This document shows positions 19,280-24,139 of a DNA stretch of 64,000 nucleotides, piece after piece. Numbering within the stretch: position 1 is the first letter of the stretch; every line of letters begins with the position of its first letter. The DNA comes from Chitinophaga sp. MM2321. GTDB taxonomy: Bacteria > Bacteroidota > Bacteroidia > Chitinophagales > Chitinophagaceae. The notes beneath the pieces are model-generated. The model was not told the origin of the DNA. It ran no database searches and saw only the letters and a program-made list of their open reading frames with translations. The DNA lies in NCBI RefSeq assembly GCF_964033635.1, contig NZ_OZ035533.1:5270001-5334000 (forward strand), given 5' to 3'. A program made the position numbers and the translations under genes.

Positions 19280-20176
19280 CTACAGGTGCTGTTCGTACTT
19301 ATTTATGGGAAGTGCCGCCTGTAACTGCTGCAAATCTGCGGCGGTCAGCGCAGGCGCCTGCACCGCTCCGATGGCGTCTTCCAGTTGTTGCATGGTACGC
19401 ATCCCCACTACGGCTGTAGTAACGGCCGGTTGCTGCAATACAAAGCGGAGTGCTGTTTGCGCAGCATCTCTACCGGTTACGGATAAACGTTGTACGGCTG
19501 CTGCGGCTGTCGCCACTTCTTCGGGGTTGTAATTGAGATACGCCACTGGGGGCTTACTCACCAGCAACCCCTTTGCTACCGGCCCTCTTGCCAATACACC
19601 GATACCGTTTTCGGCCAACAGGGAGAAACAGGTTTCTTCCGGTCGACGGTCCAGCAGGCTGTATTGCATCATCACACTCACTATATTGGCGCGTTGCACA
19701 TATGTTCTGATAACATCCGGCCTGATGGAAGAAATACCGTAGTATCTTATTTTACCCTGTTGCTGCAAGGTTTCGAAGGCGGCAATGGTATCATCGATCG
19801 GATCATTGATAGTACCGCCATGCAACTGGTAGAGATCAATATAGTCTGTTTGCAGCCGCTGCAGGCTTTCTTCCACACTGGCCAGGATATATTTTTTAGT
19901 AGGGTTCCAATCCCACCCGCTGCCATCTTCCCGCCACTGGTTACCTACTTTCGTAGCGATGACCACATCCTGTCTTTTTCCTTTCAACGCTTTACCCACC
20001 GTTATTTCATTCTGTCCCTGGTTATAAAGATCGGCGGTATCAAAACAATTGATTCCTTTCTCAATGGCGTGGTGAATGAGCTGCGCGTTACCCGTATCAT
20101 CATTTCCAAGCGACATACAGCCAAAAGTAATTTCGCTTACACGCAGTGTTGATTTTCCGAGTAGTTGATATTGCAT
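19280..20176 (-). CDS. Aldo/keto reductase
   Basis: The 298-residue protein is an AKR TIM barrel with the catalytic tetrad Asp46, Tyr51 (FDTADLY), Lys76 (ATKVG) and His119 (YQLHGG), plus a C-terminal NADPH-binding region (AVVGMRTMQQLEDAI). The ATG at 20176 (MQYQLLGKSTL) is chosen because family members begin with this phrase; an in-frame ATG 20 codons upstream would add residues unlike the family. The substrate is unknown, and the enzyme is likely a cytoplasmic NADPH-dependent aldehyde or ketone reductase. It is the last gene before a noncoding stretch of about 1.3 kb. Confidence 0.9.
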   Translation of the reverse strand: MQYQLLGKSTLRVSEITFGCMSLGNDDTGNAQLIHHAIEKGINCFDTADLYNQGQNEITVGKALKGKRQDVVIATKVGNQWREDGSGWDWNPTKKYILASVEESLQRLQTDYIDLYQLHGGTINDPIDDTIAAFETLQQQGKIRYYGISSIRPDVIRTYVQRANIVSVMMQYSLLDRRPEETCFSLLAENGIGVLARGPVAKGLLVSKPPVAYLNYNPEEVATAAAAVQRLSVTGRDAAQTALRFVLQQPAVTTAVVGMRTMQQLEDAIGAVQAPALTAADLQQLQAALPINKYEQHL

Positions 20177-20321
20177 GATCAGGGAGGATTTAATAGTAAG
20201 CAGATAATGCTTCCGGCACACTTTTGCAGACAGCACCTGTCACGAAGATAGCGCCTATTCACGCACTTTTATATGCCGGGAGCAATAAAATTGTGTTGTA
20301 ACTCGCTGCAAGCATAAACAA

Positions 20322-20920
20322 GGGCTGCCTGGAAAAGCAGCCCGGAGATTCGCCAATTCGACAATTAACACCCTATTAGTATAGCTGACAGCCACCTGTT
20401 CCTGTAAGCGGACAGGCAACTGATAATGTTTAAATCACGGGCGGCCTGGAAAGGCCACCCGATTGGTTCAATAACAACATAAAACGCCTGTTCAATCTAT
20501 AATAATTTTAAAAGTGGGGTCTGTTTGGAAAAACAGTCCCGTTAGTTCGCCATGATTACACTTATGAAAAAAAATATGATGAGGACTGTGTTCGCAGTCT
20601 GTTTTTCTAAATAAAGGGGATTGCCTGAAAAGACGATCCCTGTTGTGAAAACCACGCAACCTTCAACACAACCTGGATCAACAACAGGTTTGTTGTAAGT
20701 ATTATGGCCGCTGTAGGTACTTATTCATTTATATATAATGGACCAACCTGCACGCCTGGTGCATGCCGGGATTTGTAATAGTGGGACCGTTTTTTAAGAC
20801 GGTCCCTGCCGGTACTTCCCAACTACCGGGCATTCCAATAATGTTTTAAAAAATGAGCCTGTTTGAGGTATTCGATGACGTCCTGGTTTATAATGGGGAC
20901 CACCTGGAAAGGCAGTCCCC
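20322..20920 (+). repeat. Array of seven related hairpins with conserved loop and variable stems
   Basis: Seven stem-loops lie in 600 bp without a gene: 20322-20343, 20439-20460, 20516-20540, 20582-20600, 20616-20640, 20783-20806 and 20895-20920. Most start GGG(G) and end CCC(C), with stem sequences that differ but still pair. Five share the loop core CTGGAAA or a close variant (TTGGAAA, CTGAAAA). After at least four hairpins a GTTC/TTCGCC element follows about 5 nt past the stem (TTCGCCA after the first and third, GTTCA after the second and seventh). The fourth is followed by GTTTTTCT, as in a terminator. Further stems lie at 20664-20696 and 20807-20832. Different stems with one loop suggest RNA structures kept by selection or a mobile hairpin element. 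Strand of action is unknown. Confidence 0.75.
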
Positions 20921-21467
20921 TGCACGTTCATCTTGATTGCCTATTCGGACTTCTTATATTTCCGGATAAATATTTGCTTGTATGATCCGGTTGGGCAGGA
21001 TCATCCGCGATAAATAAACAATGGCCGGCTGTTCTTTTCGTGCGATGCAGTTCTTTACGCTGCTGGTGTACGGTCATACACGTCACGCGGCCATGACCGG
21101 GAAACGATGTTCCAGCCAGCTAATTCAGCATAAAGAAGCAGAACAGGTGGTAATGATATTTACCCAGAAATGTACATGTTTGAAAATGTCGGTTAAAAAG
21201 AAAAGTTTGCATGTGGGTCGGTTTTTCATGATAAAAATTTCAAAACAATTAAATGATGCCTGGCATATAGCCGGCGGGGTTAAATATTGGTTGGTTGTAT
21301 ACGCATTGCTGCGTTACTTGATATACTATCCCGAGATTAACAAAATATGCTACGAAGCAAGCAACTGATCAACAGATATGGTATAAATACGCTAACAGTT
21401 ACAATGTTATAATGCAAAGATAATTATCAAACTGAGGTAAAAATCAGCTTATAAGCCTAAAACTCCA

Positions 21468-21587
21468 ATGAATGAGAATGAACAGATCAAGGGCCGGTTG
21501 AACAAAATGAATAGGAGGATTTTTAAAAAATGCGGCATAACAAAAGACAGACAAATGGGAATGTTAAAATACCACATTACGGACTGA
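21468..21587 (+). CDS. Possible small ORF (39 aa)
   Basis: An ATG at 21468 opens 39 codons of a charged, basic peptide (from MNENEQIKGRLNKMNRRIF) ending at TGA 21587. A second, overlapping frame of 25 codons begins at an ATG after TAGGAGGATTTTTAAAAA, which carries a Shine-Dalgarno-like GGAGG, rare in this window. No family is recognised and neither may be real. The rest of 20921-21650 shows no convincing gene. Confidence 0.2.
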   Translation: MNENEQIKGRLNKMNRRIFKKCGITKDRQMGMLKYHITD

Positions 21588-22528: not shown

Positions 22529-24139
22529 TTACCAGCTGCTGCTGGCGCCTCCACCTCCCGAAGAACCACCGCCCCAGCTGGAACTGGACGATGAGGACGA
22601 AGAGGAAGAGGACGATGAGGAGGAAGACGATGAAGACTCCCTGATCCGTGGAATTTCAAACCGGTAATCATGCGAAAATGCGCAGGCAGCACAGCGATAT
22701 GATTTTATGCCCCAGCCCTCCGAACGGGTAGTAGCCCTTTTCTGCGTCTTCGTTTTTTTACATTCAAATGTTTTATGGACACAGGAAGGGCATTCGGAAA
22801 CCGTTGATCTTATATTCGTATAATCCAGTGTCAGCTGGTAATCGCAGGGATCACATCTCCATACATCATAATCTACTGATACCAGTTTCTCTTCTATAAC
22901 CTGCGCTTTATCCAGGTAATGATCGTCGCTTACTTCATCCAGTTTATGCATGGGGTTCAGACACTGCGGACAATCATACACGTTATCCCGCAAACTATTC
23001 AGCCGGGATTTCATAGTACGCAGATAGATAAACAGAAAAGGTAACGGGAAGATATAACCCGCCGGCAACAGCCGTTTATATACCGGCTCCAGTCGCAACC
23101 ATTTCCCGTGCCTGTCTGCATCGCGCAGTGCAATACCGGCACGCAGCGCCATAATCAGCACAGCAACATGCATAAAAACCGTCCATACCAGGTAATAGAT
23201 CAGTAAGGTCAGAAAGAATCCTGCATCGCTTCTTTTCTCAAATATCAGATAGGATATGATGATACCAGCCGTTAAATGAATCAGCAGCAACCCAAACCAC
23301 CGGGGCCTCAGAAATTCATTGGGCAATACACCAGTGATGACCGGCATTTCATCTTCCCCAATCTTTATCTTTTTTAATTTTTTACCAAAAAATGCCCCCA
23401 TCATAATGGCGGAAATAACCACCGCAGCGATCAATGCAAAAAAAGAGAAATCACCGGGTCCCCGCGCGCCACTGTAACCGGCATCATCAGCCGGTGTGGT
23501 AGGCGTGCTTGCGAAAGCGGAAGGCGCCATTTCCACAATTGGCGGCTCGTTGTCGGCTACAACCGAATCAGCAGACGCCATCAGTGAATGATCCAGTACC
23601 ATCTGCTCCGGAATATCCACTGCATCATAGGCATAATTGCCGCTGTTCATCAGAGATGAAACGGAATGGATACCATCTATGAAAGCCTGGTCAAACGAAC
23701 CTTCCTTGATCCGTGGGATCATATACTCCTGCTGGATCCGGAAGCATAAAATATCCGGCATATCGGCTTCCAGTCCCCGCCCGGTTTCAAATACCAGCTT
23801 GTGGTCATCTTCCACCAGGAGGATCAGTAAGCCGTTGTTGGTGTCACTGTTCCCTATTTTCCAGTAGTTAAACAACTTATGTGCGTACTCTTTGGAGTCA
23901 TAGCCGCCAATACTGTGCAGCAGTACAACGGCCACCTGGGCCTTCTGCGCATGGTCCAGTTCAGACAGCTGGCTATTCAGTAAATTCACGGTCGCATCTG
24001 AAATAATATGATCGGGATTGCTCACATATCCCCCACCGGATTGTTTGGGGTCAGGCACATTGGCCACATCAAATTTTCCTTTCTTATCATTACATGACAG
24101 GAGTAATGATACCAGCAGCGTTAACAAAACAAATCTCAT
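22529..24139 (-). CDS. TPM-domain lipoprotein with zinc-ribbon cysteines and polyserine tail
   Basis: The 536-residue protein has a lipoprotein signal (SLLLSCND, Cys16) and a TPM domain (about 36-175, YVSNPDHIISDA, GLLILLVEDDHKLVFETGRGLE). A hydrophobic segment lies near 230 and two or three more at about 285-375. A cysteine-rich part follows with CxxC pairs (DCPQC, RCDPC, ECPSC, RCAAC), then about 24 consecutive serines and a Trp/Gly/Ser tail. TPM proteins of the YgcG type are envelope proteins; some members have phosphatase activity or act in photosystem II repair. The membrane plus zinc-ribbon arrangement is known in related Bacteroidota proteins, but their job is not. The serine tract uses many different Ser codons, which argues for protein-level selection. 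Confidence 0.8.
   Translation of the reverse strand: MRFVLLTLLVSLLLSCNDKKGKFDVANVPDPKQSGGGYVSNPDHIISDATVNLLNSQLSELDHAQKAQVAVVLLHSIGGYDSKEYAHKLFNYWKIGNSDTNNGLLILLVEDDHKLVFETGRGLEADMPDILCFRIQQEYMIPRIKEGSFDQAFIDGIHSVSSLMNSGNYAYDAVDIPEQMVLDHSLMASADSVVADNEPPIVEMAPSAFASTPTTPADDAGYSGARGPGDFSFFALIAAVVISAIMMGAFFGKKLKKIKIGEDEMPVITGVLPNEFLRPRWFGLLLIHLTAGIIISYLIFEKRSDAGFFLTLLIYYLVWTVFMHVAVLIMALRAGIALRDADRHGKWLRLEPVYKRLLPAGYIFPLPFLFIYLRTMKSRLNSLRDNVYDCPQCLNPMHKLDEVSDDHYLDKAQVIEEKLVSVDYDVWRCDPCDYQLTLDYTNIRSTVSECPSCVHKTFECKKTKTQKRATTRSEGWGIKSYRCAACAFSHDYRFEIPRIRESSSSSSSSSSSSSSSSSSSSWGGGSSGGGGASSSW

Follow-up and report, generated by a model that had tools for sequence, protein, structure and literature searches.

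The hairpin array described here is best read as part of a Chitinophaga-specific dual-function RNA, in which the mRNA of a micropeptide is followed by a multivalent hairpin RNA. It lies on the minus strand in Chitinophaga sp. MM2321 (genome of 6.78 Mb, single contig), within the 64,000-nt window that was analysed (C1:5270001-5334000; positions below are those of the window). Its anatomy, comprising strand, structure, conservation, selection on the open reading frame (ORF) and synteny, is well supported. According to this reading, an RNA of about 1.1 kb would span the stretch between a promoter-like box near 21,413 and a terminator-like hairpin near 20,310. The 5' part would be the mRNA of a conserved 30-residue peptide, and the 3' part a conserved structured RNA with type B hairpins about every 107 nt, a second hairpin type and conserved linkers. 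As a complete statement, that is, a minus-strand RNA gene combining a peptide mRNA with a trans-acting hairpin RNA that binds a partner via its loops, the reading is tentative and falls just short of an even chance of being right.

Six hairpins of one 24-nt design (type B), all in a single orientation, occupy positions 20321-20919. On the minus strand they are found at 20896..20919, 20517..20540 and 20438..20461 (each with the loop UUUCCA), at 20783..20806 (divergent loop UUAAAA) and at 20617..20640 (loop UUUUCA, within the core-unit match at 20573-20666), all assigned by folding, model searches and covariation, and at 20321..20344. The latter is the last hairpin of the array, with the loop UUUCCA, and folding and reading of its tail (TTGTTTAT) give it a terminator-like appearance. 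Two further minus-strand hairpins lie among them: a short type A hairpin at 20582..20600 (fold near 20583-20600), which is inside the match of the core model R3 and whose helix covaries in relatives, and an extra hairpin at 20395..20416, possibly also of type A according to its predicted fold. The sequence-only reading had counted seven stem-loops, of which six share the 24-nt design; the seventh is not of this design and was likely the shorter hairpin of the second type at 20582-20600. Its description of GGG(G) and CCC(C) ends with varied stems that still pair was borne out, as the six hairpins end in GG(G)...(C)CC on the plus strand and their stems differ in sequence yet keep pairing. So was the common or variant loop in five of them, the plus-strand loops being TGGAAA in four, TGAAAA in one and TTTTAA in the remaining one. 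A GTTC/TTCGCC element said to follow the hairpins is present at four of the six (three GTTC, one ATTC), but has no regular position in the alignments of relatives when inspected by eye.

The strand is where the first description needs to be turned around: the plus strand that it used is the complement, and the pairing fits the minus strand much better. Among 118 candidate hairpins from 19 loci, selected without distinguishing G-T from A-C, the plus strand has 39 G-T versus 154 A-C cells (27 versus 112 in the 82 distinct hairpins). In the 69-hairpin alignment A4, the minus strand has 89 G-U versus 18 A-C cells, 533 of the 552 inner pair cells are standard on the minus strand versus 459 on the plus strand, and 50 hairpins fold better on the minus strand versus 17 on the plus strand. 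Since an A-C cell reads as G-U on the opposite strand, the selected molecule is the minus-strand RNA. A4 was chosen from 120 hairpins together with the window hairpins, two of which have other loops or mismatches and were included by position; five badly paired off-array rows and near-duplicate loci were dropped, and the divergent last hairpin of one clade is also left out. In the undropped 120 hairpins, for which the loop and parts of the 3' arm had served as selection criteria, leaving the pairing of the 5' arm free, 84 pair at all eight inner positions, 19 at seven, 11 at six and six at five or fewer.

Covariation, which had been proposed as a check, is present. In the nine-pair helix of the 69 sequences, 91.9% of the cells are paired and seven of the nine pairs have changes on both sides; such both-side-change cells number 76 versus 19.8 in shuffles, with none of 500 shuffles as high, although this significance is overstated because the hairpin sequences share kinship. 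The count of additional pair types stands out less (17 versus 15.1; 10 of 500 shuffles as high). When the partner is shifted by one to three columns, only 30-56% of the cells pair. The outermost pair is open in 31 of the 69 sequences and the sixth pair in 11. Covariation in both the type B and the type A helices, combined with the strand-specific wobble pairs, upholds the earlier suggestion of selection on RNA structure. The same data bear on an origin at the DNA level, that is, a REP-like palindromic repeat, a set of binding sites or a single-stranded DNA hairpin: imperfect palindromes repeated in one orientation in an intergenic region would look like this, but the wobble asymmetry requires a one-strand RNA, pairing is kept while the stem sequence varies, and the array occupies a single syntenic place without spread in this genome, which makes this explanation extremely improbable.

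Across 29 loci, 165 hairpins (three to nine per locus) follow the type B design of a 9-bp stem and a hexaloop U-N-U-Y-H-A, mostly UUUCCA. The minus-strand loop is UUUCCA in 76 of them, and position 3 is U and position 4 is C or U in 164 of 165 each, while positions 1 and 6 are selection rules of this count. The spacing of the hairpins has a median of 107 nt (quartiles 90-135). Elsewhere in the genome the loop type is rare: in 864 kb it occurs in three of 89 terminator-like hairpins and in five of 1138 others, two of the five being the array itself, as found with perfect stems only, a search that misses imperfect hairpins including most of the array.

The array is not a chance assembly. A model built from the six window hairpins and one similar hairpin elsewhere in the genome (R1) has exactly these seven source hairpins as its best matches in the 6.78-Mb genome, and 28 other Chitinophaga genomes have the array at this position. 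The idea of a hairpin element spreading by copying is not supported, given one array per genome at one syntenic place, the sole strong off-array match being a lone hairpin at C1:1957454; a spreading repeat was thus rejected from the R1 genome search and the single syntenic place across the genus. Nor was REP-like dispersal seen in this genome, where the six array hairpins and the lone hairpin top the genome-wide list. The search for copies therefore gave no further arrays in this genome, but it did give arrays in relatives. Used as a pattern with two mismatches, the motif of the sequence-only reading gave 38 matches (15 forward, 23 reverse) versus 10 for the reversed-pattern control; among the off-array matches, six stretches look coding by eye and one is the lone hairpin. 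This hairpin (G000:C1:1957454-1957489), of the same design, lies between a short-chain-dehydrogenase-like gene and the next gene, and its long T-run on the minus strand gives it the look of a terminator. R1 matches in 77 of 79 genus genomes and R2 matches in 36 of 195 family genomes were discarded as counts of arrays. In the 18 loci from outside the genus each match is a single place, and, by eye, a T-rich tail accompanies most of the 21 single matches that were read, on one strand or both.

A run of at least six T within eight nucleotides follows 18 of the 136 inner hairpins, compared with 12 of the 29 last ones. In seven close species, the last hairpin is followed by GC and then four to seven T. 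The earlier statement that the array fits no terminator role therefore holds for most inner hairpins and less so for the last one; conversely, a strong T-run at only 12 of the 29 last hairpins counts against the best explanation, which places the end of the RNA there. Some intrinsic terminators of Chitinophagaceae have the same design (e.g. GGGGCTGCCTTTCCAGGCAGCCC with a T-run in L133), whereas the array hairpins are serial and most inner ones lack a T-run.

Conservation extends beyond the type B hairpins. Of 28 loci, 23 have a CGATTGATTC linker before one of the hairpins; the window is among the five that lack this exact linker. The type A helix comes after one type B hairpin and this linker. 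Covariation was found at four of the six type A pairs in 15 sequences (alignment A5, which holds only loci with the CGATTGATTC linker and leaves out L148, L149, L151, L152 and near-duplicates); for the type A and type B helices jointly, two of five measures were reached by 14 and 18 of 500 shuffles. The core model R3 matches the window at 20573-20666 on the minus strand (E 4.3e-6). In 21 pairs of seven close species, identity is 0.83-1.00 in the hairpins and 0.77-0.96 in the linkers versus 0.45-0.82 at the four-fold sites of the neighbouring reductase gene, with gap columns excluded, which flatters the noncoding identity. Some linkers are invariant over 15-34 nt in the seven species. Two of these features stand against the best explanation: a plain sponge needs no conserved linkers, and part of the sequence that separates the last hairpin from the reductase likewise exceeds the four-fold sites (0.62-0.96 identical).

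Conserved linkers would be expected of a large self-structured RNA like OLE, ROOL or GOLLD, forming a compact or multimeric particle whose loops make tertiary or kissing contacts. Short complements of the loop are indeed above shuffles in the linkers (TGGA 96 versus 69.5, TGGAA 41 versus 24.4, GGAAA 46 versus 24.9), but the full complement TGGAAA is below them (3 versus 8.3), in orthologues that are not independent, and the signal for loop-linker pairing is mixed. The variable number of hairpins and the lack of matching Rfam families also speak against such a particle, which we consider improbable.

The region had been called a noncoding stretch, which is not wholly so, as the minus strand carries a conserved 30-codon ORF at 21120..21212 (MQTFLFNRHFQTCTFLGKYHYHLFCFFMLN plus stop), supported by profile relatives in the genus and dN/dS. 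A profile search found one copy of the peptide in 23 of 79 genus genomes, all 23 of them array carriers. Twelve Chitinophaga records supplied relatives of the peptide, one a metagenome-assembled genome and 11 with species names: C. niastensis, C. ginsengisegetis, C. arvensicola, C. polysaccharea, C. hostae, C. silvatica, C. fulva, C. terrae, C. eiseniae, C. qingshengii and C. varians. The ORF is under purifying selection. In 22 ORFs (that of G060 was not caught by the pattern), the median dN/dS is 0.11 over 71 usable of 231 pairs, the remaining pairs being outside the dS limits; differences at the three codon positions number 1586, 1182 and 3327, and single-change codon pairs are synonymous in 1853 cases versus 803 nonsynonymous, in ORF pairs that are not independent because of common ancestry. 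Peptide length differs by one codon between the clades. The peptide is small, aromatic and hydrophobic, and has no match in Pfam or NCBIfam. Partial matches in eight of 294 family genomes outside the genus (E 0.0015-0.007) were taken as chance.

A small, aromatic, hydrophobic and selected peptide at the 5' end of a structured RNA could also belong to a type I toxin-antitoxin system or a membrane peptide gene, the hairpins serving only to protect or silence the mRNA of an effector peptide. However, no antisense gene came to light, and six of the 29 array loci (G026, G061, G066, G071, G072 and G085) have hairpins but no recognisable peptide, so that we rate this very unlikely. These six loci also weigh against the best explanation and imply that the RNA and peptide halves need not work together.

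The locus would be transcribed between putative signals that flank the ORF and the array. A promoter-like box TATCTTTGCA lies at 21413..21422 on the minus strand and is of the TAnnTTTG type, the promoter consensus of Bacteroidota. Its TA..TTTGCA form is kept in relatives, where 18 of 22 loci have it at a distance of 154-278 nt upstream of the ORF, and no second box at standard spacing upstream of it was identified. Further upstream are TTCA repeats, in the window as a TTCA-rich region with several repeats at 21466..21515 (minus strand), which looks similar in relatives by eye; they may be a regulator binding site. The TTCA motifs are about one helical turn apart, and also occur in the peptide-less array loci L152 and L214. 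In L095, L096 and L097 (G050, G028 and G067), tandem units of about 24 nt like AGCATTATAARCATGTACCAGGAT were seen before the peptide ORF, and the promoter-like box was not found within 420 bases upstream. A minus-strand ORF at 22529-24139 has a long run of serines and, after it, an end rich in glycine and serine. On the other side of the array, sequence reading gives a second promoter-like box, TATCTTCG, at 20243..20250 on the minus strand before the reductase gene, in which CTTCGT is kept in most relatives of both clades, by eye. The likely order of elements, as read from sequence, is thus promoter, peptide ORF, hairpin array, terminator, second promoter-like box and reductase.

The array neighbour is an aldo/keto reductase gene at 19280..20176 on the minus strand (PF00248, E 2.7e-62). 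This reductase was found in 77 of 79 genus genomes, in all of which up to about 3 kb upstream of it was read, the two reductase-less genomes being outside this count. The array is upstream of it in 29, every time on the reductase strand, and absent there in 48. The array could also be a cis-acting 1.1-kb 5' leader of the reductase gene and of the DJ-1/PfpI gene that follows it, in which the hairpins act as attenuators in series and the ORF encodes a leader peptide. The two are adjacent on one strand in all 29 loci, and the position of the array just upstream, as a leader would have it, is itself a point against the best explanation; the T-runs after the 18 inner hairpins fit attenuation as well. 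On the other hand, most inner hairpins have no T-run, the number of hairpins ranges from three to nine, a terminator-like hairpin and a second promoter-like box stand between the array and the reductase, and the reductase does without the array in those 48 loci. We regard the cis leader as unlikely. The absence of the array from 48 of the 77 reductase-bearing species also counts against the best explanation and indicates that the array is dispensable.

R3 matches were found in 25 of 79 genus genomes, every match on an array and every genome a carrier, with four of the 29 carriers missed (G061, G066, G071 and G081). In a sample of the order, three of 396 genomes matched, all Chitinophaga carriers, one known carrier there being missed, and no R3 match was found in other genera. 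Stricter filters were used in the large R3 searches, and because R3 misses known carriers, absence outside the genus means no R3 match rather than proof of absence. On these sequence comparisons, the hairpin array is best read as specific to Chitinophaga. Five non-carriers retain the DUF6515 neighbour; in the two of these that were read closely, L206 and L210, the gap contains an open frame of at least 100 codons, and other dense palindromic repeats built on AAACCGGTTTGGGTAAAA occupy the same intergenic place in the non-carrier L197 (G037).

Under the best explanation, a trans-acting hairpin RNA behind a peptide mRNA, the RNA would be a transcript of its own, and its many like loops would all bind the same partner, most likely an RNA-binding protein, which would be titrated or gathered; the peptide may act separately or on the same pathway. 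We infer the action in trans, the protein partner and the role of the peptide. The multi-copy regulatory RNA or protein-binding sponge proposed in the sequence-only reading is a possible role. A bolder form, which we hold to be doubtful, is that one transcript gives both the 30-residue peptide and a hairpin chain whose UUUCCA-type loops assemble a dedicated ribonucleoprotein, with the peptide perhaps a part of it, in a Csr-like titration in bacteria in which no CsrA was found. Such an RNA would constitute a new bacterial class. The locus joins strong covariation, a strand assignment, a selected micropeptide and clear presence or absence across 77 genomes of one genus, and this combination makes direct testing possible in, for example, C. 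niastensis, C. arvensicola or C. ginsengisegetis. Should a protein bind the loops, the locus would point to a new Csr-like post-transcriptional regulator where no CsrA was found; otherwise it would still encode a large RNA not described before, along with a peptide, a seldom-seen combination.

Among described RNAs, the array RNA matches no family in Rfam, OLE, ROOL and GOLLD included to the extent that the searched library covers them: neither the window nor ten loci of relatives gave a match at the gathering score, and the best weak match in the region, to a human-virus family (E 0.15), was taken as chance. No description of such an RNA appeared among the titles and abstracts that searches of the open-licence literature brought up. 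In type III toxin-antitoxin systems the toxin gene lies directly behind the repeat array; here the next gene after the array is the aldo/keto reductase (PF00248). The plus-strand TGGAAA loop had suggested a CsrA sponge, which was rejected because selection acts on the opposite strand and no CsrA turned up. GGA is on the complement only, the minus-strand loops being UUUCCA-like, and CsrA (PF02599) was found in none of the 79 genus genomes, that of MM2321 included, in a search whose control finds it in three of 14 known genomes. The array is therefore no sponge of the Csr system, although its mode of action may be similar. In CsrB, motifs repeated in the loops of hairpins are described as sequestering a protein (PMC7652899), and the array resembles CsrB/RsmZ in that a single RNA carries many similar hairpins sharing a conserved loop motif; it differs in its loop (UUUCCA, not GGA), in the absence of CsrA, and in having long conserved linkers and an ORF.

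Dual-function RNAs, RNAIII also being one, offer a second comparison. A small selected ORF accompanies the array, apart from the six array loci without a recognisable ORF, and in VcdRP and SgrS/SgrT a small conserved ORF is likewise described upstream of the regulatory RNA part, the VcdP peptide of VcdRP having 29 residues (PMC8672173). The array locus differs from these in its much longer hairpin array, its unrelated peptide and its phylum. Given this arrangement and the multiple copies of one exposed loop, the UUUCCA loops might pair with UGGAAA-like sites in target mRNAs in the manner of VcdRP (PMC8672173). However, loop positions 2 and 5 vary between copies, unlike a strict antisense seed, and the usual target is missing because Bacteroidota mRNAs are described as being without Shine-Dalgarno sites (PMC6847099); a base-pairing RNA is thus rather improbable. 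Finally, like OLE, ROOL and GOLLD, which are described as long, structured and conserved RNAs (PMC12286853), the array RNA is long, structured and conserved, but it is predicted to consist of serial independent hairpins rather than one intricate fold, is without an Rfam match and encodes a peptide.
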